From Cladocopium goreaui (lineage: Eukaryota; Sar; Dinophyceae; Suessiales; Symbiodiniaceae): DNA of 64,000 nt. The stretch is from NCBI GenBank assembly GCA_947184155.2, contig CAMXCT020000458.1:434001-498000 (forward strand). Direction: 5' to 3'. Numbering within the stretch: the first letter of the stretch is position 1; every line of letters begins with the position of its first letter. Positions 14,070 through 62,001 of this stretch are shown piece after piece. The notes beneath the pieces are model-generated. The model was not told where the DNA came from, made no database searches, and saw only the letters and a list, made by a program, of their open reading frames with translations. The translations under genes and the position numbers were made by a program.

Positions 14070-15191
14070 ATGGGTGCTTCCTTCAAGGGCAAATCCAAAG
14101 ATGGCATGTACACGTACTGGGATGGTGGAAACTGGGAAGCGGACCTCTATTTCTCCAACAATGGCAAGGGCAAGCATATGAAGAGTAAGATGAAACCCTC
14201 CGCAAATTTTTATGGTATGGGTTTGTATTCCCTTCCATTTGATGATTTTGGTGTATGTCATGGTGATCCTTCTGAACCCCTTCAACTACATCCTTTGGAA
14301 CTTTATTCAGAAAATGATGTTGGTCCTGTTCATCGGTCGGTTCCTCCTGGTTTTGGGATGTTGGACTGTGGAGCAACGGCTTCAGCTGGTCCAGAGGGTT
14401 CAGTCAAAAGGCTCATTGGGGCTTTGCGCAAACATGACCCGGAACTTCAAGTTAGCTTCAACTATGAGAAACGCCCCTTCTTTCGATCTGGTTCAGGCAA
14501 ATGGGGTCAAGCACTATACCACATGGTCATTTCCAGTTCTTTGCCAAATGGTCGCTATTTTGACATGTATGTCCTGGAGAACCCCAAGGAATTCTTTGAG
14601 GATTGGTTTGCCGATGACATGCTAGTCCCCATTTTGGTTGGCATGGATCACATGAACAAGGTTGGTCTCATCTTGGACTTTAGCGATGGCCATGCGGTGA
14701 ATGGTAACGAACCCCCTTGCAATCCCTACAAGTTGGAGAAAAACACCAAGGGTCACTATATGGTGAACATTGCCCACTACCTCTTTGACTCCATCACGGA
14801 ATCCGAGGCGGGCATCCAGCAGCTTGCAGCAGCAACTTGCCACGAGGTGCCAACCATGGATGGGCACCACATGTTTGGGGAAGATTGGTATGAACTAGCC
14901 GTGTTGTCAAATGGTGTTGAACTTCAAGTACATGAGCATGAAACACAACATGGCAGTGCACGTTTTCAAATGTTTCAGCAAGTTGTTCAGCGACGTTTGC
15001 AAATCAATGCTTCTTCAATCTCAGAAGCTGTTGGCGGTCAAGTTCACGAGGGCGGTGGTGATCTAACCCATGGCCCCGAAGAAGCCATTAGCTCCTCTCG
15101 ACCACTTCAAGGAGAAGCTGGCAGATCCTCGCGATCCCCGCTCATGCAGCACGTCTTGGCCAGGCCATGGACATGTTGCAGAAAGATCTGA
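14070..15191 (+). CDS. Retropepsin-like protease ORF of truncated element
   Basis: The 373-codon ORF contains GFGMLDCGATASAGPEGSV at about residues 93-111, an aspartic-protease active-site pattern (D-C-G-A-T), and later LVPILVGMDHMNKVGLILDF, which fits the second half of a retropepsin fold. It would cleave the element's polyprotein. The C-terminal third is low-complexity and overlaps the next ORF in another frame, suggesting a frameshift near 15070-15190. No integrase follows. Start is the first ATG of the open frame, and the natural product was probably fused to Gag. Confidence 0.65.
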   Translation: MGASFKGKSKDGMYTYWDGGNWEADLYFSNNGKGKHMKSKMKPSANFYGMGLYSLPFDDFGVCHGDPSEPLQLHPLELYSENDVGPVHRSVPPGFGMLDCGATASAGPEGSVKRLIGALRKHDPELQVSFNYEKRPFFRSGSGKWGQALYHMVISSSLPNGRYFDMYVLENPKEFFEDWFADDMLVPILVGMDHMNKVGLILDFSDGHAVNGNEPPCNPYKLEKNTKGHYMVNIAHYLFDSITESEAGIQQLAAATCHEVPTMDGHHMFGEDWYELAVLSNGVELQVHEHETQHGSARFQMFQQVVQRRLQINASSISEAVGGQVHEGGGDLTHGPEEAISSSRPLQGEAGRSSRSPLMQHVLARPWTCCRKI

Positions 15192-46229: not shown

Positions 46230-46353
46230 ATATATACATAATAATAAGATAGATAGATAGATAGATAGATAAGATAAGATTAGATTAGATTAGATTAGAT
46301 TAGATTAGAATAGATAGATAGATAGATAGATAGGTAGATAGATAGATAGATAA

Positions 46354-46389
<36 letters not shown>

Positions 46390-47451
46390 ATAGATGGATA
46401 ATAACGGACAAGAACAGACAAGAACAAATAAACATAGATAAGAATAGATAAGAATGAATAAGAATAGATAAGAATAGATAAGGATAGACAAAACTAGATA
46501 TGAATAGATACGATTAGATACGATTAGAAAAAAATAGATAAGGTTAGACAAGATTAGATAAGAAGATAGTATTAGATAGGATTAGATAAGCTTAGATACG
46601 ATTAGATAAGATTTGATAAGATTAGATAAGTTCAGATAAGATTAGATAAGTTTAGATACGATTAGATAAGTTTAGATACGATTAGATAAGTCTAGATACG
46701 ATTAGATAAGTCTAGATACGATTAGATAAGATTATATAAGAGTAGATAAGATTAGATAAGTCTAGATACGATCAGATAAGATTAGATAAGATAAGATAAA
46801 ATTAGTTTAGATTTGATACAATTAGATAAGATTAGATTAGATTAGATACAATTAGATAAGATTAGATACGATTAGATAAGATTAGATAAGATTAGATAAG
46901 ATGAGATAAGATGAGATAAGATGAGATACAATTAGATAAGATTGGATAAGGTTAGATAAGATTGGATAGATATATAGGATAGATAGATAGATTAGATAGA
47001 TAGATTAGATGGATAAGATAGATTAGATAGATTAGATAGATTAGATAGATTAGATCGATTAGATAGATAATATAGATAAGGTAGGTAAGATAGATAAGAT
47101 AGATACGATAGATTAGATAGATATGATAGATATGATAGATAAGATAGAGAAGATAGATAACATAGATAAGATAGACGAGATAGATAAGATGGATAAGATA
47201 GATAAGATAGATAAGATAGATAAAATAGTTCAGATAGATCAAATAGATAAGATCGATAAGATCGATAAGATAGATAAATTTAGAAAAGATAGAATAGAAT
47301 AGAATAGATATATAGATAATCGATAGATAATCGATAGATTAGATAGATTAGATTAGATTAGATGATTAGATTAGATTAGATTAGATTAGATTACATTTGA
47401 TTAGATTAGATCAGATTAGGATAGATACATAGATAGATAAATAGATAGAAC

Positions 47452-47489
<38 letters not shown>

Positions 47490-47580
47490 CAGACAGATAG
47501 ATAGACAGACAGGATAAGAAAGAAAGAAAGAAAGAAAGAAAGACAGAAAGAAAGAAAGAAAGGAAGGAAGGAAGGAAGAA
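46230..47580. repeat. GATA/GATTA minisatellite (1.35 kb)
   Basis: About 1.35 kb made of GATA, GATTA, GATAAGATTA and GATACGATTA units, ending in GAAAGAAAG and GGAAGGAAG runs. Minus-strand frames are open as Ile/Tyr/Leu repeats. Unit type changes along the array (GATAGATA, then GATAAGATTA, then GATAGATTA, then GATA, then GAAA). Confidence 0.95.
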
Positions 47581-49022: not shown

Positions 49023-49341
49023 AGTAGAAATATTACGACCCCTATACCACCACTGTATATACTAGTATTAGTTCACTCCTTACTGTTGCTATGATTCCAA
49101 CTCCACAACAGTATTGTACAGTACTCCAACAGTAGTCGCAACCTATAGCTAGAAGCGTTAGCCATAGGTAGAGCCCGTAGTGTAGGTAGGAAATGGTTAC
49201 CCCTTAACCAGCAGGGTCCGTAACCATAGTAGCCCACCGAACATATCTGGCTCAAGCGCTCCGCAGTAAAAGGAGCGTTTGCAACATCTATGGGACAGGG
49301 GAGATTAATTGGTTGTTTCTTGTTTTTCCCCCTGTTTCTCT
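49023..49341 (+). repeat. 5' LTR
   Basis: 319 bp starting AGTAGAAATATT and ending CTGTTTCTCT. The ends are AG ... CT, not the usual TG ... CA. It contains two stem-loops: CCTATAGCTA/TAGCCATAGG (49142-49168) and CAAGCGCTCC/GGAGCGTTTG (49253-49281). The only difference from the 3' LTR is C at 49109 versus G at 61764. Confidence 0.93.
49253..49281 (+). promoter_or_regulatory. LTR stem-loop (10-bp stem, 9-nt loop)
   Basis: CAAGCGCTCC pairs with GGAGCGTTTG (one G-U) around GCAGTAAAA. It starts inside TGGCTCAAG (49248-49256), which equals the last nine bases of the dinoflagellate spliced leader. The same structure is in the 3' LTR at 61908-61936. Its role is unknown: a packaging signal, a polyadenylation signal or a splice-leader mimic are all possible. 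Confidence 0.55.
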
Positions 49342-49469: not shown

Positions 49470-52400
49470 ATGGTACCAGAGGGTCTGTTGGAGGGGGCTG
49501 CTTTGAGCGCCTCCGAACCGGTTGCCGAAGGGAACCCGGAAGCAGAGGCGGAAGCTGCTGAAAGCGCTGAAGTCACTGTTGAAGGAAGTACCGGGTTCAA
49601 CTGGGCAGACGCCTCTGAGGACCCGCCCGTGCCGTCAGCTGGTTTTGAAGTGGGAGGGGCTGCATCTAGCGCCCTACAGGACGACGCCGACGAGGACTTT
49701 GACATCTTGAAGTTTGACGCACTGTCTCTTTTGGATCCAAAACCGGAGGAAGTGGTCACTACTGAGCAGTTGTTTGAAGCACTTGAGGCCGACTTCGATC
49801 CCACCGCCGAGCCAGCCGAACAGCTTGAGGCATCCGAACCAATCGAAGCAGAAAATAATCTCGAAGGTGATAACCCCGAAAATCTAATTCCAAAGGAAGA
49901 AACTGATTTTTCCAATAACCCTGATCAGGAAACTAGTGCTGAGGTCGCAGACTCCGCCGCAGATCCGATTGTAGGAAGCTCTCCATCCGTAGTTGAGCCA
50001 GATCCTAATTCGACATTTGCTCCGGTATACGTCCAACACCTTGGAGGGGTAGCGGAAGAGGACGAAGTCGCGCCGCCCCCAACATCTCCGTTTCTTGAGC
50101 AGGAAGGGGCTGCCGCAGGCGCCTCAACAACTGGGCACGTCCAAACAGGCCACTCTCCTGCAGGACCGTCCAGAGGTCCCCGTGTCCGTGGAACCAAAGG
50201 CGGGAAGAAAGCCCAAACCAAAAGGCTTATACAGCGTTGGCAATCCGACTTTGATAAACTAGCTGACTTTCTTTGGAACGAGGCAGAATTTTGGCTCAGG
50301 TACGTCCACCACTCAGAAGCATCCGCTGAACTGATTTGGACTGTCCGTGTCTTTAGAGTCCTCTACAATCATTGTACGCTAAACCAAATCTTAGTCCATC
50401 TTGCTAATACCTTTGCTCCTTATAGAAATTGGGTTTTTACCAACGGATATCGAAGAGGTGAATTACATCTGGCTTCAGATACAGCTGCAAATACTGTGCT
50501 ACCTGATAGGGATCACATTAACTTGCAAGCTTTTGGGGATCCAGATCCACCTAGATCCGTTTGGGACGACTACGATACCTATAGGGGTCCACAACCAAAA
50601 GGTAAGGCAAAAGCCAAAGCTAGCGTATTTACCCAAAATACTGAACTACCATCTGGATCCGAGCAAGCTACAGCATTAGGTGTTGACCCAGCAGTAGATA
50701 GGGGTGTTAGTTCTTCTGAAGAAACCCACACTCCATCACCAAGGGGCCCACCAAAGGCTAAAGCTAGGCCTAAGCCAGTGTCCGAACCTAAGGAACCCAG
50801 TCATCCACCGCCGTGGGTGCCATCCCTTCGACCTGTAGGCCATCAATCCGCTCCGAAGGTTTCAGAATCCGTAGCCAGTGTTCCGCCGCCACGTGCCACG
50901 GGAGGGGCTGCTGAAAAGCGCCCTAAACCTGAAGAGGCTGAGCAAGCATCCGATCCAAAAGCATCCGGCAAAGCATCCGTGCCAGAACCGGCTGAGCCTA
51001 AAGCATCGGACCCCAAAGTTGCTAAGCCCTCTAAGGATAATCCTTTAAAAAGATTAGGATCCCCACCTAGTTATCCAGCACCATCCGTGCCTGCACATCG
51101 AGATTTCCACCAAACTTTAGGACCTCCTCCAAAGCGGCCGCCAAGAGCTGCAACGCCAAAAGGAGAAAGGGCTGCAACAGCGATCCCTCCGCCACCATCT
51201 CATCCACCGCCATCGGCGGCTGATTTGGATAGGGCTGAACGTGGAAGACCACGTGAGAGAGCTGGCACACCCCCTGCCCGAACAGTTAAAGGTGGTAACA
51301 TCGATAAGACCCCAGCTGCATCAGCACCTGCTGCGCCTAAGCCAGTGAGCCGATCTAGATCACGGGTTCCAGCCACTCTCACCCCGAGAGCTGACGGTTC
51401 TTTTGCAGATCAGGACACTGAGGTGTTGCGCCGTGCAAGGGGTGGTAACTTGGGTACCCCTAGTCTTAGTTCCCGACCAATAGCCCTAAGACCCGCTGAT
51501 AGTAATTATCCACCCGTGATAATAAACTCTGAGGGCACTTGGGTGCGTATCTCAAAGCCGTCCGGCTCTGCAGGTAGGGAACCCACAACTGTTCCTGTTG
51601 CCATTCCTGGCACTGCTACATCATCCGTTGACCCCCACGAACTTGCTGACGAAGTTTGGCGTGATCCGTCTTTGGTTGGTAGCAACACTGCATTGGTATC
51701 CTCCCATAATACCCAGGTAATCCCGATCTCAGAACCTGAAGGCCTAGTTGCCGTTGATTCAGAAGCTGTAGAAGGGGTTGAAGAAGAAGAAGAAACTACA
51801 GTTCCTCCACCAAAAAGAAGGGCTATTGTTACAACAACTTCTTCTGGGCGTAGACAGGTTTACCAATCTCGACGTAGATCAATTCCTCAACCCGAACCAA
51901 CATCAACTGCTGCTGCGCCAGGTGGGCCTCCATCTGAACCCGAGGCACCGGACGAGGACCCAGATCCCTTTGAAGGTGAACCAGAAGGTGAAGAGGAAGA
52001 GGATCACTCATCTGACCCTCCTGAAGCCCCTCCCGAGGGCGAAGAGGAAGTTGAGGTTGAAGTAGAAGTTGAGGAAGGGGCTGCTCCATTAGCGCCTCAA
52101 GAACCCAGCACTCCATCGCAGGCATCGCCGAAAGCTCCAACTACTAGAGGTAGTGTTAGTAGGTTTTTGTCACCCAGTGCAGAAGGTGCTGAACGTTCTA
52201 GATCTCGTCACAGGGACACAACCGCTGAGGAAGAGGCTCCAGTTGCCGTAACAACTTCTTCAACAAGAGTTTCAGGTACAATCCAAACCCAAATCTTTCG
52301 AGACGGCACCAAAGCCCAAGTTTTTGCACCTGATATCCCAACACCTAAGACTCCTCCAAAATCTATAGGCCCACCACCACCAAGATCATCGTCACAGCCA

Positions 52401-53543
52401 GCTAGAGTTAAGCCGCCTCCACCCGGAGTTAGTGCAGCAAGTAGGTCCGCATCAGCAGTTCCACCCTGGCGGGAAGGGGCTGCACGTGCGCCCCAAGGAG
52501 GTCCTCCAATCAAAAAGAAGTATAAGGCTCCTCCTAGACCTCCCTATAACTACTCCGTAACTGTTGGCCAAGCTTACGAGCCAGGTGTAGACCCTGATCC
52601 TCCAGAGCCCACAGAGGAGGAACTCAACGCAGCTTGGGCCCGCTCCAAGGAGCATCAAGACAGGGCTTGGGAGCGACACGTAGATTCGCTCGCAGATCGC
52701 AAGCATCGCCAAGCACTCGAGGCCTATAACCAGGCGGAAAAACAGAAGAGGAAGCACAATAAGGTGAAGCCACGTCCAAAGCAGCCTCCAATCGTTGTTC
52801 CACCTAGGCCAGAGAGACCTGTTCCAAAAGCCCATAAAACTGCATCCCCAAAACCTAGTCCACCTGCGACACCAGTGTCGACACCTCCAACACCACCGCC
52901 GCGACCACCTAAGGCGACTTCTACATCAACAGCATCCGTCCCTACTAGCGGTAAGGCAGGTGCTGCGTTTCGCGCGCCAGGGGGTAGAATAGATTTAGGC
53001 CCTTTAATCCGAGCTCGTCAAGAGCGAGGTGTAGGTGGCAGTAATCTAGTCGTGTTTTTCGATTGGCACGACACCCTCGACTGCGCTAGAAACGCCCTTG
53101 GTGTGTTTGATCGTTCTATTGTGGATAAGTTCGTGAACCTTGTACAGCTTGCACAGGGCAGGATCGAGTTCCACATTGTGTCTTTCTCCGGCGTAGCCCG
53201 TGGCCGCCAAACGGAAGAAGACGCCAACAATCTGGCGGAGTTCTGTAGGTCACAAGGCCTTCCATTTAGGTCAGTGACTATAGTTAACGACCCAGTGGGT
53301 CCAGGGGGCAAGACACCTGTCCTTACATCTAGCGGCGCAAACATACATCTTGACGATCGTCAAGACGTCTGCGACGAGGCTGCACGCGCCAACATCTTTA
53401 CGATTTGTGTATACAAGTCCCACACATTGAGTTGGTGGCCCCAATTGGAAAGTGCGGTCAAGGATAAGGGGGTGGATTACTTTTTGCGCAACCACGCGCC
53501 GGTGCCTTTGAGGGGAGACCAATTCTCTCGCCGTAGGAATTAG
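49470..53543 (+). CDS. ORF1: disordered protein with C-terminal HAD-like domain
   Basis: 1357 codons. Residues 1-245 are acidic and Ala/Glu/Pro-rich. About 246-345 is a basic then helical segment (GKKAQTKRLIQRWQSDFDKL ... AEFWLRYVHHSEAS) that could be a globular core. Residues 345-1180 are Pro/Ala/Lys/Glu-rich low complexity with basic RSRSR patches. The C-terminus (about 1190-1330) is HAD-like: VVFFDWHDTLD (Asp1198 as possible nucleophile, but His1200 replaces the usual second Asp), FHIVSFSG (motif II Ser), GGKTPVL (possible motif III Lys) and IHLDDRQDVCDEA (motif IV Asp1295-Asp1296). The HAD family hydrolyses phosphate esters or transfers phosphoryl groups. I know of no copia element with this domain. 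ORF1 starts 128 bp after the LTR and is in a different frame from ORF2, 263 bp upstream. EGAA/GGAA peptides mark the hairpin motif copies. Confidence 0.82.
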   Translation: MVPEGLLEGAALSASEPVAEGNPEAEAEAAESAEVTVEGSTGFNWADASEDPPVPSAGFEVGGAASSALQDDADEDFDILKFDALSLLDPKPEEVVTTEQLFEALEADFDPTAEPAEQLEASEPIEAENNLEGDNPENLIPKEETDFSNNPDQETSAEVADSAADPIVGSSPSVVEPDPNSTFAPVYVQHLGGVAEEDEVAPPPTSPFLEQEGAAAGASTTGHVQTGHSPAGPSRGPRVRGTKGGKKAQTKRLIQRWQSDFDKLADFLWNEAEFWLRYVHHSEASAELIWTVRVFRVLYNHCTLNQILVHLANTFAPYRNWVFTNGYRRGELHLASDTAANTVLPDRDHINLQAFGDPDPPRSVWDDYDTYRGPQPKGKAKAKASVFTQNTELPSGSEQATALGVDPAVDRGVSSSEETHTPSPRGPPKAKARPKPVSEPKEPSHPPPWVPSLRPVGHQSAPKVSESVASVPPPRATGGAAEKRPKPEEAEQASDPKASGKASVPEPAEPKASDPKVAKPSKDNPLKRLGSPPSYPAPSVPAHRDFHQTLGPPPKRPPRAATPKGERAATAIPPPPSHPPPSAADLDRAERGRPRERAGTPPARTVKGGNIDKTPAASAPAAPKPVSRSRSRVPATLTPRADGSFADQDTEVLRRARGGNLGTPSLSSRPIALRPADSNYPPVIINSEGTWVRISKPSGSAGREPTTVPVAIPGTATSSVDPHELADEVWRDPSLVGSNTALVSSHNTQVIPISEPEGLVAVDSEAVEGVEEEEETTVPPPKRRAIVTTTSSGRRQVYQSRRRSIPQPEPTSTAAAPGGPPSEPEAPDEDPDPFEGEPEGEEEEDHSSDPPEAPPEGEEEVEVEVEVEEGAAPLAPQEPSTPSQASPKAPTTRGSVSRFLSPSAEGAERSRSRHRDTTAEEEAPVAVTTSSTRVSGTIQTQIFRDGTKAQVFAPDIPTPKTPPKSIGPPPPRSSSQPARVKPPPPGVSAASRSASAVPPWREGAARAPQGGPPIKKKYKAPPRPPYNYSVTVGQAYEPGVDPDPPEPTEEELNAAWARSKEHQDRAWERHVDSLADRKHRQALEAYNQAEKQKRKHNKVKPRPKQPPIVVPPRPERPVPKAHKTASPKPSPPATPVSTPPTPPPRPPKATSTSTASVPTSGKAGAAFRAPGGRIDLGPLIRARQERGVGGSNLVVFFDWHDTLDCARNALGVFDRSIVDKFVNLVQLAQGRIEFHIVSFSGVARGRQTEEDANNLAEFCRSQGLPFRSVTIVNDPVGPGGKTPVLTSSGANIHLDDRQDVCDEAARANIFTICVYKSHTLSWWPQLESAVKDKGVDYFLRNHAPVPLRGDQFSRRRN

Positions 53544-53774: not shown

Positions 53775-53806
53775 AGGACCCACTCGTGCTGGTCCCTTGG
53801 TAAAAG

Positions 53807-56800
53807 ATGCAGTCTGGATTAACTCCACCAAGTGAGAGTTCAGGTGCAGATAGGTCTAGGAGCTCTCCAGAAGACCCCAAATTACCTAGTGGTACTAGAA
53901 TACCTGCCGCTTCCACTATACTTGTTCCCCGAAGAGCATCTGGAAGTAACCTATCCCATAATATTCCCCAAGCTGAATCTTCTGACACCAGTATGGAGGA
54001 TAGGGGTGGGGCTAGGCGGAGAGCACGTTCAGGTCCTGATCCATCCAGTAGCAGCAGTAGGCACAATCCAAATGTTCCCATTGACCTTAATGCCACACAA
54101 GCGTCTTTCTTGGCAGGTGCAGCTGTAACCCAAGCGCATCAAGCGTCCTTAATAGCTAATAATGCTGCCGACGTAGCACTCTCATCACAACTAGAAGTTC
54201 AACATGCCCAACAGGTTGCCAAAGCCATCCATGCCGGGGCCGTGCAACAACAGTCTGATTTTGCTCAGGCTGCAGCGGCGTACCAACAGCAGGCCACACG
54301 TGCCTACTTGGCTCAGCAGGAGGAAGCTCGGGCTGCCATTGAGCAGAGGGATAGAAGTTTCCAACTTTTAGAGATGAGGGCCCACCAACAAGTTCAGGGG
54401 ATTCGTCATGAAGCTGAACGGGAAATATTGGCTAATAGGGGTGTAGTTCAAGAAAGGGCACAACAATGGGTTAATGATAACATTCGACCACTTCAACAAC
54501 AAATTGCAATTGGTTCACAACAGTTGGTTGATCGTGATAATCAGTTAATGGATAGGGAGATAAGGATAGCACGACTCCAATCCCAATTGGATGCCATCCA
54601 GCAACAGGGTGCCCATAACATCCCAGTTGCAACCCCGACCCCAATTCCTGAATCACCAATGACCGTTCATACCGAATTTGATTTGTTTGAGGGCCAAAAT
54701 AACCCTTTTACTTCAGACGTTATGGATGGATCAGCCACACCAATTCACACTCCACCTAGGCAACCAACAGGTATGTCTCCTAGGGAATCCCCTTTGATTC
54801 AGTTTAATCCTGTTTTGCCTGATGCAGCACAACCTGCGTCATCCACCCAAAATATGTCTAGTGTTCCAAGCATCCCCATAAGTTTTGGACCGCCTGTTTT
54901 GGTAGAAGCCCCCGAAGGCCTACCATTATCTTCTAGTGCTATTGTTCCCCTGCAGTCGGGTCTAGTACAACCTAGCCCTGTTCCGGCACCTAGTGCTGTG
55001 CAACTTAATGTTGGTACTGCGGCAAGTGAGCATTGTACAAATGAAGATCGCATTAGTGCGTTACAGGACCAAGTTTCACAACTTATGCAAGCGTTGCACA
55101 CACAGACACAACTTGTAGCACAACTGCAAGCGGCGAAAGCACCAATGCCTATAGCTCCACCACCTAGCACCCCTCAAGCTTTGGCCATGGGAGGTGCTGC
55201 TTTGAGCGCACCAATCGGACAGACTGCAGCATGTTCCGTCGTCGCGCCTTTGCCACAACAGGTGTTGCCACCAGGCCTGCCGCCGTTGCCTCTAAGTAAA
55301 GCTGGTCTTTTACCCCAAGGGTCTCCATATGTTTATAACTCTGGGTCCCAACGTTCTAAGCAGTCGGGTAGTTCCGAGTCCTCATCAGATTCTGATGCTG
55401 GGCCACCCCCACCAAATCCATATACTCAATGTAGGATTTGTGGAGAATTTCATGATGAAATTAACTGCCCATACTTAACTATGAACATGGGGGGAGAAGA
55501 TTTTTCGGACCAAGGGCTTGCGCAACCCCGTCCCGGAGATGCTGAAGTTAGGGACTATGCAGATGAGGAGGATAATACCATTAGAGTAAAATCACTCAAT
55601 GATTTGGTTTTTCCAAACCCTCCCGAAAATGCCGGTCAAGCTAGGGGATATGTTAATCAGGTCCTCATGGCCATCGGTAAGCTACAGAAAACCCCAGGTA
55701 ATGAAGTTTACCAATGGGCCCAAGAATGTATGACATCCACTGAAAATCAGCTAAAAACCGATCCACGCTTCCCACGCACGGATCGAGAAATCGCCTCAAA
55801 GCTTATAAAAACTTGCCGACGGGGTCGATTTGGCTTAATTTTTCAGCAAATGGTTGAATCTGAGCGCCTCTCTTCCGGCTCTATGCCGTGTGGACGCGTA
55901 ATGCTCCAAAAGATCTTTCACTATTTTCAACTGGAACGCGATAGAATTGGCATGTTGGGAGAACGCAACTTGTTATCGCTTCGCATCCCGGGAAATACGC
56001 ACCAAGATCTAGAGGCCTTCAGAGACAAGTATATTTATGTGATGTCTACAATACCAATCCAAGATTTACCGCGAGAGCAAACTCTTTTTAACCATTTAAT
56101 TGACGAACTCGAGCGGACCCCTATCATGGCTGCCAAAGTGTTGAAAGCCCGTGAAGCCCCACTCACCAGCCACCGCAGATCGACTAATTGGTTGTGGGAA
56201 AAAGTAGAGCTAGTTCTCCAACTTGACCAACAACGCAAGAATCGTATTGAGTTTGATAAACAGCTTAAGCTCAAGCCTGCGGAGGGATATCTTGGTACCA
56301 CTAACCCAAAAGTTGCAGGAGCCCCTGCCACCTCTGATCCTAAGGCTGCCCCAAAAGGTAATCCTAAGGCTGGTGTGCCTGGAGCCCCCGCTCCCAAAAA
56401 TGCTAATCCAAAATCTAAGGCAGACAAAGGTAAGAAGGTAGAGGCTGCTCCAGCGCCTCATGCTAAAGCTAAGGCCAAACCAAAGGCCAAAGCCAAGGGC
56501 ACAACCACTACTTCACCACCACCAAAAGCAGGCGCAACCACTCCAAGGAGTGCGGAGGCCAACAGGGTCGCCAATATGACCCCGGCCCAAAAGGCAAAAA
56601 CACCGTGTATGTTCTATGCCTACAACGCCTGCAAGGCGAAGCAGTGCGCCTTCTTGCATTCTGCCACCGAAAAGTATAAGGGGCCCCCACCCCGAGCATT
56701 ATCCAAGTCTAAGTCTACAACTAGCGTTCCTGGCAGTATGGCCACTATAGCTGCTGGCACAGCAGCTGTGCCCATTGTTGACGCTATGCCTTCCAAGCTT

Positions 56801-59800
56801 AACGGAGCAATCCCGTGGCTTTGGGACACTGCAGCCGGTAGGCATCTAATTGGCAAACAAGCCTTAACCCCAAAAATGAAAGAGTTTTTGCAACAATCTC
56901 CAAACCCAGTAGCTTTCGAGACAGGGGGGGGTAGCCAGGCTGGTCAAGAGTCAATCGCTTTTGACGGCAGCAAAATCTTAGAGGGAGAGGAGGTTTATGT
57001 CTTAAAAGATTGTCCACCAGCTCAGAGTATCGGCAAGACTGTTATGGATAAAGGTTATATGTTCGTTTGGGATCCCCGAGAAAATGTTCCATATCTAATT
57101 GCACCTGAGAACATCAATAGATGCAAACTTAAGGTTCCCCGCAATGCTAGGATTTGTGCCTCACGTGTTGTCGAATACGTTCCACAATATGATGAACAAC
57201 TTAGTCCGCGTAACTTTGTTCCAGCAGAAAGGTTAACCCCAGTTTCTACAGCTCTCCCAGCTGATCCTTTGCCGGATGAGGATTCTGGTTATTCACCTAG
57301 TTTTGCAGGCCAAGATGTCGCACGACTTGAAGAAGTTGCTGAGGCCGATGATCCAAAAGATGCAGCTGCATCCAGCAGCCCACATGCAAGTGTACCGGAA
57401 GGTGCTGCTCCTAGCGCGCCACCGCACCCTTTAGATGATAAGTTGCTTGTTGAGTTAGGTGATGGTATCCCTATCAAAGATGAAGTCTTGAAAAAGGAAG
57501 CCACTAGCTTAGAGCATCTTTTGACGCACTACCCCAAAAATCCATATTGCCCATTATGCCATATTGCTAAGGATACTGCAATGCGGGTCTCTCATGTTAA
57601 GGATGGTAAGTCCGATGATAAGATTGATCCACCAAAACAACCTTTTGAGCAATTGGCCACTGATGATGTTATCCTTGCAAAAGGGTCTGAGCATTTTGGA
57701 ACGGGGATAGGAGGGGTTAAAACACACCATGTGGTAAGGGACCTTTATTCCGGTGCACGAATAGCATATCCCCTATCAAAAAGAGATGTTGAATCACATG
57801 CCAAAAATTTTCGACATTTCGTGGGATTGAAAGCCAATGAACTTGCCACCCACACACTTATCAAAATGGACGAAGCGCAGGAATTGGAGCAGGCTGCCCA
57901 TCAGGTCGGCTTCGTTCCTGAGACGTCCCTTCCCAACCGTTGGCCGCACAACGCTCTCTTAGAGCGCGACATCCGGGAGGAGAAAGAGTGTTGCAGGGTC
58001 GTTCATTTACAATCTGGTTTGCCCTATGAGTATCACACATACAGTTACCCATACGCATGTCTTTCCATGACTTTTGATAGACCTTCTATTGTGGACCCTG
58101 AAAAGACCCAATGGGAAGCTCTTACACGTGAAAAGTTTGATGGCAAGCGTTTGTGTTTTGGTCAACTTGTGTACTATCGCAAGAAGCATCCAACAAAAAG
58201 GACCTTAGAACCCAATATGGCTCCTGGTTTGTTTCTTGGTTGGCGAATCGATTCTGGTTTTCGTTATAGGTATGTTGTTCGGATATTAGATTATCAAGAG
58301 TTTCGAACTAGAGGTGCTTCACGTGTTTCCGATGTACCCGAGCCTGAACTATACCTTCCAGATGGTGATGCCTATTTTCCCGTCGGTTTTTCGAAGCATC
58401 AGGCCTTGATCAGGGGGGATGATCCCGATGATGTTAAACTTCCTGAAATAGCCCTGCAAAATGTTCCGTTTCCACCAGACGGCGGTTTAGCTTCCCCATC
58501 TACACCCGGCCCCAAACCTAGATCGGTTTATATCACCTTAGACCGCATCATAAAGTTTAAGGAGACTCCCGGTTGTACAGGGTGTAAGAATAAGACTCGG
58601 TACCACAATGCAGAGTGCCGTAAACGGTTCCAGAAACTAGTTGATGAAGAAAAGGAGCTGGAAGCCAAGTCAAAGCCCATATCAGAGTCGGTAGTTGCAG
58701 AACCTCCGACCGAGGTTCCTAGTGCGCTTGAGGATGCCCCCGTGGGACCACCACCGGAGGACAGTGTATTTGATGATGAAGGTGAAATCACAATTGCTGT
58801 TCCTTATAGCGTCTCTGGTGCTGCCACCTTGCCCCAGACTGCTCCCAGCTGCGCTGAATTATGTAGGGATTCCTTGCCAGTGTTCGGTGCACAGCCCGTG
58901 CCTGCATGCCCCGCAGTTAATCAGCCTCCTAAGAATAACAATAACCGTCGTAAGCGACGTGCCTTGAAGAAAAGCCAGAAATCCAATGAGAGATCAACAC
59001 TGTTTGAGTTTGCATGTTCCCTCAACTCACAGCTTGGGTTGACAAGTGAGCAATGTAATATAAATCACATTGGGTTATGCAAGGAAAGGATAGACTTAAG
59101 TGATGAGAATCAATGTTCCCAACTTGATTATCAAATAGGTGAAGCCGCAAAAGTTGCACCACCTAATCTTTGGTCGTCCATACCATGCACGTCTGGTTCG
59201 CCTTGGCAGTATATCAATAGACGGAAGGGAGGAGCTGCTTATATGAAAAGATTAGCGCTCCAACTCCGAGAATCGAAACGACTTTTCAAAAGCTTTACCA
59301 AAAGGGCAGAATTAGTTTTGAAACTAGGAGGCACTGTTTCTTTTGAATGGCCACGTCCCTCAACTGGCTGGAAGAGACCAGATGTCGTAGCTTTCTTTAA
59401 TTCTCACCCTGAGTTTATGGAAGTTGATTTCGATGGTTGTGCAGTAGGTCTTAAGTCCAAGAAAGGTGTTCCCATCAAAAAGCCTTGGAGAGTCCGAACC
59501 ACTTCCCAAAGAATAGTAGATGTTTTTAAAGATAAAAAGTGCAGTTGTGAACAGCCACATGAAAAGTGTGAAGGTTCGGAAACGGCGCGATCAGCTATGT
59601 ATCCTGCAGAGATGGCATTTTTGATTACCCAAGCGCTGTACCCTGCTAAGTGTTCTCAACAACATGCTCCCGCAATGCCATGCGCTCCACTTTCAACCGA
59701 ACCTCAAGAGCACCGCGAAGTTGAACAACATCTTAAACATGTGTCCCCACTAGCTGGTTTTGAGGATCTTGCAGTTGCCATTGAAACAGATCCAACAGTG

Positions 59801-61630
59801 AACTGCTTAGTGTCGGAGCTTCTAGACCATGAGCGTTTGTTGTCACAAGCTTTCGGGCATGAAGATAACAATGAACCCTCTAAAGAGGTTCAAGCTATGG
59901 TAACTAAGTTGCTGTCCAGGGCCGAGATGTTATCCAACCCCCAAGCCCTTGATGCTGTTAAGGTCGAGGCCGATGGACTGATCAAGGCAGGAACGTGGTC
60001 ACTTGATTCCGTTCGGGAAAAGGAAGATGTACGCGCCGAGGCCAAGCGCACAGGAGTGTCCGTTCATTTCGGGCAACTCATGACCATAGCGTCCATTAAA
60101 TTCTTCGAGCTTGCGCAGCACCTGCAAGAGATGAAGGGCAGGATCGTCTATAGGGGCGACTGCGCAAAGGACGAACATGGCGCTGCAGCGGTCTACCAGG
60201 AGCTAGGGGCAAACCCGACTTCGGTCCAAGGTTTAAATGCTTGTTTGGCATACGGTTCCCTGCCAGGTAATAGCTCATCCGCAGCCGATGCTGTAAAGGC
60301 TTACGTTCAAGCACTCCTGTCTTCAAAGTACAAGACCTGGATAGAACTCCCGCCTGAGCTAAGACCAAAACATTGGCGAGATAAGTTTGTTAAACCTGTA
60401 GTCCTCCTAGTTAAAGCCTTATATGGTCATCCTGATGCCGGTGGCCTTTGGGAGCAGCACCTAAAGAAAATTATCCGCAACCTAGGTGGCCAAGAGGTAC
60501 CTGAATACCCTGGTAACTTCTTTTTCCTAGATACTAAGTTGTTGCTTTCCACCTATGTAGATGATCTCACGCTTGCTGGTCCCACTGACCAACATGACGC
60601 CTTCTGGGCAAAGCTGACATCTGTTGTGGATATTGAACCACCTGAACCAATATACCGAATTTTAGGTCGCAATCATCTAGTAATGCCATTGCCCAAAACC
60701 GAGGGTTCCGAGGAATGTGCTGCGTTTCGCGCACAAGAAGCCTTAGTCTTTGACATGCTAGATTATGCACACCAAACAGTTGATCTTTATAAGTCCATCA
60801 CCAACACCAAAAGTTTGAAGCATGCTGCCACTCCTTTTGTACCTGATGGTTCTGTCTCTGTTGAAGATGAAGAGGCTAAAGGTGAACTGGCACCCAATGC
60901 ATGCCGCATTCTTATGAAGGCGTTGTGGCTTGGTCGGCTGTCCAGACCTGATATAATCAAACCCATAAATGATTTAGCCACTAAAGTGCAGTCTTGGTCC
61001 AGGGGGGACGATAAGAGGTTGTTAAGACTCATCCAATACATAGACTCTACACCCCAATACCGTCTAGTGGGTACCATCAAAGATAATCCCGAAGATCTTG
61101 AGTTACGTTTATACGTTGACGCAGATTTCGCCGGTGATCGTCTTAGTGGAAAATCCACATCCGGTGGGTATTTAGTTCTATATGGGCCTAACTCCTTCTT
61201 CCCTCTTGCGTGGGTCAGCAAACGCCAAACATCCACATCCCGTTCTACAACAGAATCAGAAGTGGTTTCATTGGCTTATTCCCTTTACCAAGAAGGCCTG
61301 CCGGCCCTGCAACTATGGGAGCTTCTCCTAGGGCGCACCGTGACGCTTAGAGTCTTAGAAGATAACCAAGCTACCATCCTGGTAGTACGTAAAGGTTATT
61401 CCCCTAAGCTTAGGCACATCACCCGCACCCATAAGGTTAATTTGTCCGGGCTGTCCGAAGTCTTCCGTGATGACTCAGCCGAGCTTGAGTACTGTCAGAC
61501 CGACAGTCAGGCTGCGGACATCTTCACCAAAGCGTTGCCACCCCAAAAGTGGGCCCCGGCACTGCGCTTGCTTGGCATCCGCGTAGATTTAGGTAGTGAA
61601 CTTAAACCCAAGGGAGGGGCAGCTACCTAG
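53807..61630 (+). CDS. ORF2: Gag-Pol polyprotein (Ty1/copia type)
   Basis: 2607 codons, uninterrupted. Order: Gln/Ala-rich coiled coil (about 115-265); zinc knuckle C542-x2-C545-x3-H549-x4-C554 placed before the capsid-like segment; Gag helices (about 595-850); CCCH finger C934-x7-C-x4-C-x3-H951; aspartic protease with DTAAGRHLIG (Asp1007; Gly expected at the third position is Ala); integrase HHCC-like H1237-x3-H1241-x6-C1248-x2-C1251; integrase core with D1286 or D1287, D1355 and E1386 in HNALLERD; a linker with C1590-x2-C and a Cys cluster at 1912; RT (about 2050-2330) with YGHPDAGGLW (2206) and YVDD (2250-2253); RNase H with YVDADFAGD (Asp2438), RSTTESE and EDNQA (Asp2519); ADIFTKALP near the end. 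D1355-E1386 spacing is 30 residues, not 35. The stop lies inside the last hairpin motif copy. Confidence 0.95.
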   Translation: MQSGLTPPSESSGADRSRSSPEDPKLPSGTRIPAASTILVPRRASGSNLSHNIPQAESSDTSMEDRGGARRRARSGPDPSSSSSRHNPNVPIDLNATQASFLAGAAVTQAHQASLIANNAADVALSSQLEVQHAQQVAKAIHAGAVQQQSDFAQAAAAYQQQATRAYLAQQEEARAAIEQRDRSFQLLEMRAHQQVQGIRHEAEREILANRGVVQERAQQWVNDNIRPLQQQIAIGSQQLVDRDNQLMDREIRIARLQSQLDAIQQQGAHNIPVATPTPIPESPMTVHTEFDLFEGQNNPFTSDVMDGSATPIHTPPRQPTGMSPRESPLIQFNPVLPDAAQPASSTQNMSSVPSIPISFGPPVLVEAPEGLPLSSSAIVPLQSGLVQPSPVPAPSAVQLNVGTAASEHCTNEDRISALQDQVSQLMQALHTQTQLVAQLQAAKAPMPIAPPPSTPQALAMGGAALSAPIGQTAACSVVAPLPQQVLPPGLPPLPLSKAGLLPQGSPYVYNSGSQRSKQSGSSESSSDSDAGPPPPNPYTQCRICGEFHDEINCPYLTMNMGGEDFSDQGLAQPRPGDAEVRDYADEEDNTIRVKSLNDLVFPNPPENAGQARGYVNQVLMAIGKLQKTPGNEVYQWAQECMTSTENQLKTDPRFPRTDREIASKLIKTCRRGRFGLIFQQMVESERLSSGSMPCGRVMLQKIFHYFQLERDRIGMLGERNLLSLRIPGNTHQDLEAFRDKYIYVMSTIPIQDLPREQTLFNHLIDELERTPIMAAKVLKAREAPLTSHRRSTNWLWEKVELVLQLDQQRKNRIEFDKQLKLKPAEGYLGTTNPKVAGAPATSDPKAAPKGNPKAGVPGAPAPKNANPKSKADKGKKVEAAPAPHAKAKAKPKAKAKGTTTTSPPPKAGATTPRSAEANRVANMTPAQKAKTPCMFYAYNACKAKQCAFLHSATEKYKGPPPRALSKSKSTTSVPGSMATIAAGTAAVPIVDAMPSKLNGAIPWLWDTAAGRHLIGKQALTPKMKEFLQQSPNPVAFETGGGSQAGQESIAFDGSKILEGEEVYVLKDCPPAQSIGKTVMDKGYMFVWDPRENVPYLIAPENINRCKLKVPRNARICASRVVEYVPQYDEQLSPRNFVPAERLTPVSTALPADPLPDEDSGYSPSFAGQDVARLEEVAEADDPKDAAASSSPHASVPEGAAPSAPPHPLDDKLLVELGDGIPIKDEVLKKEATSLEHLLTHYPKNPYCPLCHIAKDTAMRVSHVKDGKSDDKIDPPKQPFEQLATDDVILAKGSEHFGTGIGGVKTHHVVRDLYSGARIAYPLSKRDVESHAKNFRHFVGLKANELATHTLIKMDEAQELEQAAHQVGFVPETSLPNRWPHNALLERDIREEKECCRVVHLQSGLPYEYHTYSYPYACLSMTFDRPSIVDPEKTQWEALTREKFDGKRLCFGQLVYYRKKHPTKRTLEPNMAPGLFLGWRIDSGFRYRYVVRILDYQEFRTRGASRVSDVPEPELYLPDGDAYFPVGFSKHQALIRGDDPDDVKLPEIALQNVPFPPDGGLASPSTPGPKPRSVYITLDRIIKFKETPGCTGCKNKTRYHNAECRKRFQKLVDEEKELEAKSKPISESVVAEPPTEVPSALEDAPVGPPPEDSVFDDEGEITIAVPYSVSGAATLPQTAPSCAELCRDSLPVFGAQPVPACPAVNQPPKNNNNRRKRRALKKSQKSNERSTLFEFACSLNSQLGLTSEQCNINHIGLCKERIDLSDENQCSQLDYQIGEAAKVAPPNLWSSIPCTSGSPWQYINRRKGGAAYMKRLALQLRESKRLFKSFTKRAELVLKLGGTVSFEWPRPSTGWKRPDVVAFFNSHPEFMEVDFDGCAVGLKSKKGVPIKKPWRVRTTSQRIVDVFKDKKCSCEQPHEKCEGSETARSAMYPAEMAFLITQALYPAKCSQQHAPAMPCAPLSTEPQEHREVEQHLKHVSPLAGFEDLAVAIETDPTVNCLVSELLDHERLLSQAFGHEDNNEPSKEVQAMVTKLLSRAEMLSNPQALDAVKVEADGLIKAGTWSLDSVREKEDVRAEAKRTGVSVHFGQLMTIASIKFFELAQHLQEMKGRIVYRGDCAKDEHGAAAVYQELGANPTSVQGLNACLAYGSLPGNSSSAADAVKAYVQALLSSKYKTWIELPPELRPKHWRDKFVKPVVLLVKALYGHPDAGGLWEQHLKKIIRNLGGQEVPEYPGNFFFLDTKLLLSTYVDDLTLAGPTDQHDAFWAKLTSVVDIEPPEPIYRILGRNHLVMPLPKTEGSEECAAFRAQEALVFDMLDYAHQTVDLYKSITNTKSLKHAATPFVPDGSVSVEDEEAKGELAPNACRILMKALWLGRLSRPDIIKPINDLATKVQSWSRGDDKRLLRLIQYIDSTPQYRLVGTIKDNPEDLELRLYVDADFAGDRLSGKSTSGGYLVLYGPNSFFPLAWVSKRQTSTSRSTTESEVVSLAYSLYQEGLPALQLWELLLGRTVTLRVLEDNQATILVVRKGYSPKLRHITRTHKVNLSGLSEVFRDDSAELEYCQTDSQAADIFTKALPPQKWAPALRLLGIRVDLGSELKPKGGAAT

Positions 61631-61677: not shown

Positions 61678-61996
61678 AGTAGAAATATTACGACCCCTAT
61701 ACCACCACTGTATATACTAGTATTAGTTCACTCCTTACTGTTGCTATGATTCCAACTCCACAAGAGTATTGTACAGTACTCCAACAGTAGTCGCAACCTA
61801 TAGCTAGAAGCGTTAGCCATAGGTAGAGCCCGTAGTGTAGGTAGGAAATGGTTACCCCTTAACCAGCAGGGTCCGTAACCATAGTAGCCCACCGAACATA
61901 TCTGGCTCAAGCGCTCCGCAGTAAAAGGAGCGTTTGCAACATCTATGGGACAGGGGAGATTAATTGGTTGTTTCTTGTTTTTCCCCCTGTTTCTCT
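61678..61996 (+). repeat. 3' LTR
   Basis: 319 bp, identical to the 5' LTR except G instead of C at 61764. At roughly 0.3 percent difference the insertion is young. Confidence 0.93.
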
Positions 61997-62001
61997 TTAA
62001 A
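61997..62001. repeat. Target-site duplication, right (TTAAA)
   Basis: Matches 49018-49022. The flanking text continues ACATCATAAAA. Confidence 0.8.

Follow-up and report, generated by a model that had tools for sequence, protein, structure and literature searches.

The 64,000-nucleotide stretch of Cladocopium goreaui DNA analysed here (contig CAMXCT020000458.1, positions 434,001 to 498,000 of the forward strand; referred to as the window) contains a young long terminal repeat (LTR) retrotransposon of copia-like type, whose first open reading frame (ORF1) ends in a domain that, judging from its predicted structure, almost certainly has the haloacid dehalogenase (HAD) fold and that has in all probability been maintained by selection. 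The domain is classed as HAD by its fold but is kept out of the DxD branch of HAD phosphatases, because the second Asp of motif I was looked for and a His was found in its stead. An earlier note, made from the sequence alone, had described HAD motifs at this place and had read them as a HAD-like domain; the observation itself is confirmed and the interpretation is supported. The best explanation as a whole, held tentatively and drawn from sequence, model and analogy, is that a clade of copia-like LTR retrotransposons encodes ORF1 as an accessory protein, whose HAD domain would bind Mg2+ and a phosphoryl group and act on a phosphoprotein of the ribonucleoprotein (RNP).

Motifs and invariant residues

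Conservation was determined in 51 domain sequences, 46 of which are distinct (model numbering plus 1170 gives the ORF1 residue number). The four motifs, namely DWHDT, Ser 1238, Lys 1281 and the pair Asp-Asp 1295-1296, lie where the earlier note had placed them, and residues D28, W29, H30, D31, T32, S68, K111, D125 and D126 (model numbering) are unchanged in all 46 distinct copies. The six catalytic positions of HADs (D, T, S, K, D, D) are all found among the 28 invariant ones of 170, an outcome with a probability of 1.2e-5 for six randomly drawn positions, which are not strictly independent. The predicted nucleophile Asp (D28) stands at the end of the first strand (residues 23-27 in the model) and is followed by Thr at +4 (T32); the Ser of motif II (S68), the Lys of motif III (K111) and the acidic pair of motif IV (D125-D126) are present as in other HADs. 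Silent codon changes occur at D28, D31, T32, S68, K111 and D126. Departures near the motifs were R127 replaced by Cys in one copy, D34 by Glu in one, and an altered G71 in two.

The earlier note had also reported that His replaces the second motif I Asp; this change is real, and all 46 distinct copies read have it. The His1200 codon (53067-53069) is CAC in every one of them, while the neighbouring Asp codons vary silently. The codon of motif IV Asp 1295 (GAC) is likewise constant.

The DNA pattern for DWHDT followed by L, I, M or F occurs 179 times in the genome, compared with 6 times for the reversed control. Among the matches listed (100 of the 179), 97 were at known domain copies; the three others, off the copy lists, were fetched and proved to be chance matches. 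The pattern for the Asp form, DWDDT, was found at 36 places (10 in the control), none of which lies within 2 kb of a listed element copy. Several of the 20 places inspected look like exons of cellular HADs; motif I of these host sequences differs from that of the element domain by Asp for His only (e.g., IIFDWDDTL at loci L070, L074 and others), and the cell seems to own a set of such HADs. No significant similarity to the element domain was found in the 20 of 36 stretches fetched, which had been picked for motif I (best E 0.013), and a host HAD with DWDDT as donor of the domain is thus unsupported.

Predicted fold and database searches

In the predicted model the Asp of motif I follows strand 1, the Ser ends strand 2, the Lys starts a helix and the Asp-Asp pair ends a later strand, so that the model has a Rossmannoid HAD fold. 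The structural match on which the earlier note had made its proposal depend was found both in this model and with a second structural aligner, Foldseek alone giving weaker results. With the second aligner, 45 of the best 50 rows were what we take to be HADs, and a universal stress protein was absent from these 50 rows. A search of viral structure models returned an unnamed phage protein as the top row (E 7.1e-6), with rows named as prohead protease or XkdF among those named as HAD. PHROGs family 420 (of unknown function) gave matches for 7 of 22 members with a best E of 9e-5 (7.5e-5 for L040), and is not used as support. A tblastn search of the L040 domain against phage genomes found nothing; relatives of the domain were found neither in the viral contigs nor in the prokaryote genomes searched, and no significant ones in phages. 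Families that the VIA list lacks may still come into question.

Copies, groups and selection

Two domain queries were combined in the genome search, which scores only the best 150 candidates per query. They gave at least 170 distinct places, a number that includes fragments and may include allelic duplicates, and a further search added a few more fragments. Group A, to which the window element belongs, accounts for 43 of the 170 places, group B with a few intermediates for 100 and group C for 27, with a domain identity of 37-52% between groups. In many copies the domain closes an open ORF1 of at least 1,000 amino acids, so that ORF1 is not confined to the single copy from which the earlier note had worked. 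The domain proteins of L006/L007, L011/L012 and L026/L027 look identical; these loci perhaps lie on duplicated or allelic contigs, and copy counts may be somewhat inflated. The N-terminal and middle blocks of ORF1 are also conserved among groups A, B and C, which indicates that ORF1 is shared as a whole; the structure model of the N-terminal block was poor (pLDDT 48).

The pooled ratio of nonsynonymous to synonymous differences (pN/pS) of the domain was 0.116 in group A (26 sequences), 0.209 in B (15) and 0.213 in C (5). These values, and those of dN/dS below, derive from non-independent pairs and leave out the copies with stops, which lowers them. For three other ORF1 pieces of about 150 residues each the ratio was 0.137-0.259 (group A), 0.282-0.515 (B) and 0.162-0.419 (C), and for the nine-codon tail past the domain it was 0.048, 0.239 and 0, respectively (few sequences). 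The domain is therefore under clear constraint, as is much of ORF1, in line with the earlier expectation that it is maintained.

Linkage to gag-pol

Among the best 150 of 2434 candidate matches to the reverse transcriptase (RT) stretch of ORF2, 123 are preceded by the domain on the same strand and within 20 kb, at a distance of 7-8 kb in 108 of the 123. Two of the 27 matches lacking a listed domain (contigs C5808 and C4355) have a fragment in the further listing, and five of the 27 lie less than 7.3 kb from the contig start. The element thus carries, in many copies, a conserved ORF outside gag-pol. Identities of the HAD domain and of gag were compared between groups, with group A represented by the window element alone (11 A-B pairs): 38.7% vs 79.5% for A-B, 37.5% vs 71.2% for A-C and 52.3% vs 75.1% for B-C. 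The nearest groups accordingly disagree, being A and B by gag and B and C by HAD; from these sequence comparisons, an exchange of ORF1 between lineages or fast change in group A is possible.

Element architecture

The features of the element are summarized in Table 1. It is a young LTR retrotransposon, as the earlier note had held, since a single base out of 319 distinguishes its two LTRs, and LTRs with a short target-site duplication (TTAAA) are what is expected of a Ty1/copia element. ORF2 matches RVT_2 with 24.4 bits, below the Pfam cut-off of 31.6. By eye, it also contains a zinc knuckle, a gag-like region, a protease (WDTAAGRH), an HHCC/DDE-like integrase and an RNase H; the HHCC, DDE-like and YVDD motifs, likewise read by eye, would place the integrase before RT and the RNase H after it. 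The Pfam search of ORF2 gave no match for integrase, RNase H, protease, zinc knuckle or gag-like region. ORF2 looks like a complete gag-pol and, because the gag-pol motifs were all read in it (by eye, except RT), ORF1 looks like an additional protein. The earlier note needs correction in that ORF1 does not resemble a Gag ORF and the gag-like sequence lies in ORF2 (by eye).

ORF2 starts 263-415 nucleotides past the ORF1 stop in 7 of 9 loci and farther in both group C loci. A frameshift fusion of ORF1 and ORF2 was rejected, as all three frame relations occur among the nine loci and an in-frame stop at 53801 precedes the ORF2 ATG of the window by two codons.

Table 1. Features of the element in the window (window positions)
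Feature	Position	Strand	Remarks
Target-site duplication TTAAA	49018..49022	.	Same letters at 61997-62001; one base longer possible (TTAAAA)
5' LTR, 319 bp	49023..49341	+	Self-BLAST, 99.69% identity with 61678-61996
ORF1, putative 1357-aa accessory protein	49470..53543	+	Conserved N-terminal and middle blocks, C-terminal predicted HAD domain; Pro-rich joins (by eye)
ORF1 conserved N-terminal block, predicted helical	50064..50627	+	31-35% identity with groups B and C
ORF1 conserved middle block	51366..51707	+	About 38% identity with group B
Predicted HAD-fold domain	53034..53483	+	Model residues 19-168, ORF1 residues 1189-1338
Motif I, D-W-H-D-T, ORF1 1198-1202	53061..53075	+	Invariant, 46/46 distinct copies; His 1200 at the place of the acid/base Asp of HAD phosphatases
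Motif II, Ser 1238, end of FHIVSFS	53181..53183	+	Invariant 46/46, three synonymous codons
Motif III, Lys 1281, in GGKTP	53310..53312	+	Invariant 46/46, both codons occur
Motif IV, Asp 1295-Asp 1296, in IHLDDR	53352..53357	+	Invariant 46/46
ORF2, 2607-aa apparent gag-pol, copia-like type	53807..61630	+	RVT_2 E 2.6e-5, under Pfam cut-off
ORF2 stretch with RT motif YVDD	60329..60874	+	Query for counting relatives; 150 matches scored out of 2434 genome candidates
3' LTR, 319 bp	61678..61996	+	One mismatch vs 5' LTR
Target-site duplication, second copy	61997..62001	.	Flank comparison

A 21-mer of the spliced leader occurs 172 times in the host genome and 0 times for the control, which marks the host as a dinoflagellate. 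The idea that the LTR holds a relic of the spliced leader was abandoned, the 21-mer having no match in the window at up to 3 mismatches; a 12-mer of it matches both LTRs with 2 mismatches, with 14 matches in the window vs 7.7 +/- 2.8 expected, a number reached by 3 of 100 shuffles. Elsewhere in the window, a long degenerate AT-rich tandem array (46244-47559; 10-bp unit ATAAGATTAG and relatives) lies upstream of the element at a distance of about 1.5 kb, and a 373-aa ORF (14070-15191) with LDCGATASAGPEGSVKRLI resembles, by eye, the aspartic-protease region of other retroelements.

Comparison with known systems

The capless HAD phosphatases (MDP-1, SCP/Fcp1, HisB-N/GmhB and the T4 Pnkp phosphatase domain) share with the element domain the fold, the motif order, the nucleophile Asp and the Thr, Ser, Lys and Asp-Asp residues, whereas the element domain has His for the second Asp of motif I, shows no significant sequence similarity to them and forms the end of a retrotransposon-encoded protein of 1357 amino acids. 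Baculovirus 38K (Ac98), a HAD-motif protein required in nucleocapsid assembly, is reported to work through the dephosphorylation of P6.9 (PMC5899202); it keeps the DxD (D140xD142) where the element domain has His, and the comparison with it is one by analogy.

Captured enzyme ORFs in LTR elements, additional ORFs in plant LTR elements and methyltransferases in dinoflagellate elements are already known. Bdelloid rotifer LTR elements have an ORF3 for a DEDDy exonuclease or a GDSL esterase (PMC5408684), and plant LTR elements can have additional ORFs, or aORFs (PMC7264820). A gag-pol with a captured ORF, enzyme-like in rotifers, is common to these and to the present element, in which, unlike in them, the ORF lies upstream of gag-pol and has a predicted HAD fold. 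The HAD domain is also constrained within groups (pN/pS 0.12-0.21), whereas the bdelloid ORF3 is described as without significant departure from neutrality (PMC5408684). Copia elements are described as the most abundant retrotransposons in Symbiodinium genomes, where the elements with acquired DNA methyltransferases are LINE and DIRS; the Copia elements are stated to be without such a domain (PMC5890265). The acquisition of an enzyme domain is thus shared, while the element class differs. Among the papers listed by full-text searches, which covered part of the literature, none dealt with a HAD domain in an LTR retrotransposon.

Proposed function and alternative explanations

The motif spacing is short, and the domain is therefore apparently capless. 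As the nucleophile, the Lys and the acidic pair are kept, the domain seems likely to carry out phosphoryl chemistry, or to bind Mg2+ and phosphate at the least, and as the His is fixed this chemistry would be altered. Asp1198 would be the nucleophile accepting the phosphoryl group, Ser1238 and Lys1281 would hold the phosphate, Asp1295/1296 would bind Mg2+ and His1200 may stand in for the missing Asp as acid/base. The most likely substrate would be one of the phosphoproteins in the RNP of the element itself (Gag, or ORF1 in its Ser/Pro-rich part), the dephosphorylation of which might promote the packaging of RNA or the assembly of particles, as reported for baculovirus 38K and P6.9; long, apparently disordered linkers may let the domain reach this partner. 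The residues kept make a catalytic role somewhat more probable than one in binding only, whereas an RNP phosphoprotein as partner, though favoured by analogy with 38K, is less likely than not.

Several observations weigh against this reading. The Foldseek search of the PDB had a pair of universal stress protein rows at its top (E 2.0e-4 and 2.7e-4), and no others had E < 0.001. Searches of Pfam, NCBIfam and PDB sequences gave no significant HAD match, so that the domain is not placed in a named Pfam or NCBIfam HAD family; the fold itself is not contradicted by this. All copies read lack the residue that serves as acid/base in HAD phosphatases (PMC12715507), the second motif I Asp. As for constraint, one of the three upstream ORF1 pieces lies below the domain in group C (pN/pS 0.162), one in group B has a median dN/dS of 0.109 vs 0.151 for the domain, and the nine-codon tail lies below the domain in A and C. 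Between A and B, gag is far better conserved than the domain, and nothing specific points to Gag as the substrate.

A chance resemblance or another Rossmann-like fold would agree with the Foldseek rows, but is very improbable given the second aligner and the four motifs, which are invariant in the copies read and stand at the right places of the fold. A more serious alternative, to which perhaps a one-in-three weight is due, is a pseudo-enzyme in which His blocks turnover, leaving a phosphate- or phosphoprotein-binding module (an adapter that would dock on a phosphorylated protein of the host or on the 5'/3' phosphates of RNA). The fixed His with its constant CAC codon would fit this, as would the A-B divergence, which a binding surface that tracks its partner might show; a pure binder would, however, be expected to lose some of the nucleophile Asp, Lys and motif IV Asp-Asp over such divergence, and all are kept. 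Other HAD branches function with Ala, Tyr or Thr at +2, and the +2 residue of HADs contacts Mg2+ via its backbone, so that His need not break the metal site. If the domain is catalytic, it could also be a 3'-phosphatase like T4 Pnkp that cleans the ends of cDNA or RNA prior to priming or integration; this is improbable, since protein and small-molecule HAD phosphatases score equal or higher structurally and sequence matches are not significant. Still less probable is an SCP/Fcp1-like action on host phosphoproteins such as the carboxy-terminal domain of Pol II, in favour of element transcription, for which the structural score is level with that of many other HADs. The preferred RNP reading can be widened into a bolder and rather unlikely one, again from sequence and model: a new HAD family, missed by named profiles and seen so far only in these retrotransposons, would be a working phosphatase or phosphotransferase with His for the acid/base Asp, regulating the RNP of the element (or host polymerase) by dephosphorylation, and possibly the first HAD enzyme from an LTR retrotransposon.

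Implications

As this case shows, domains of this kind in protist elements can escape sequence profiles, and the change from DxD to DxH poses a clean, testable question on HAD chemistry. Since the many copies read all keep the domain, it probably benefits the element in some as yet undescribed manner. If a clade of Copia elements carries a maintained phosphatase-fold protein, the proteins of these elements may be regulated by phosphorylation or may act on phosphoproteins of the host.
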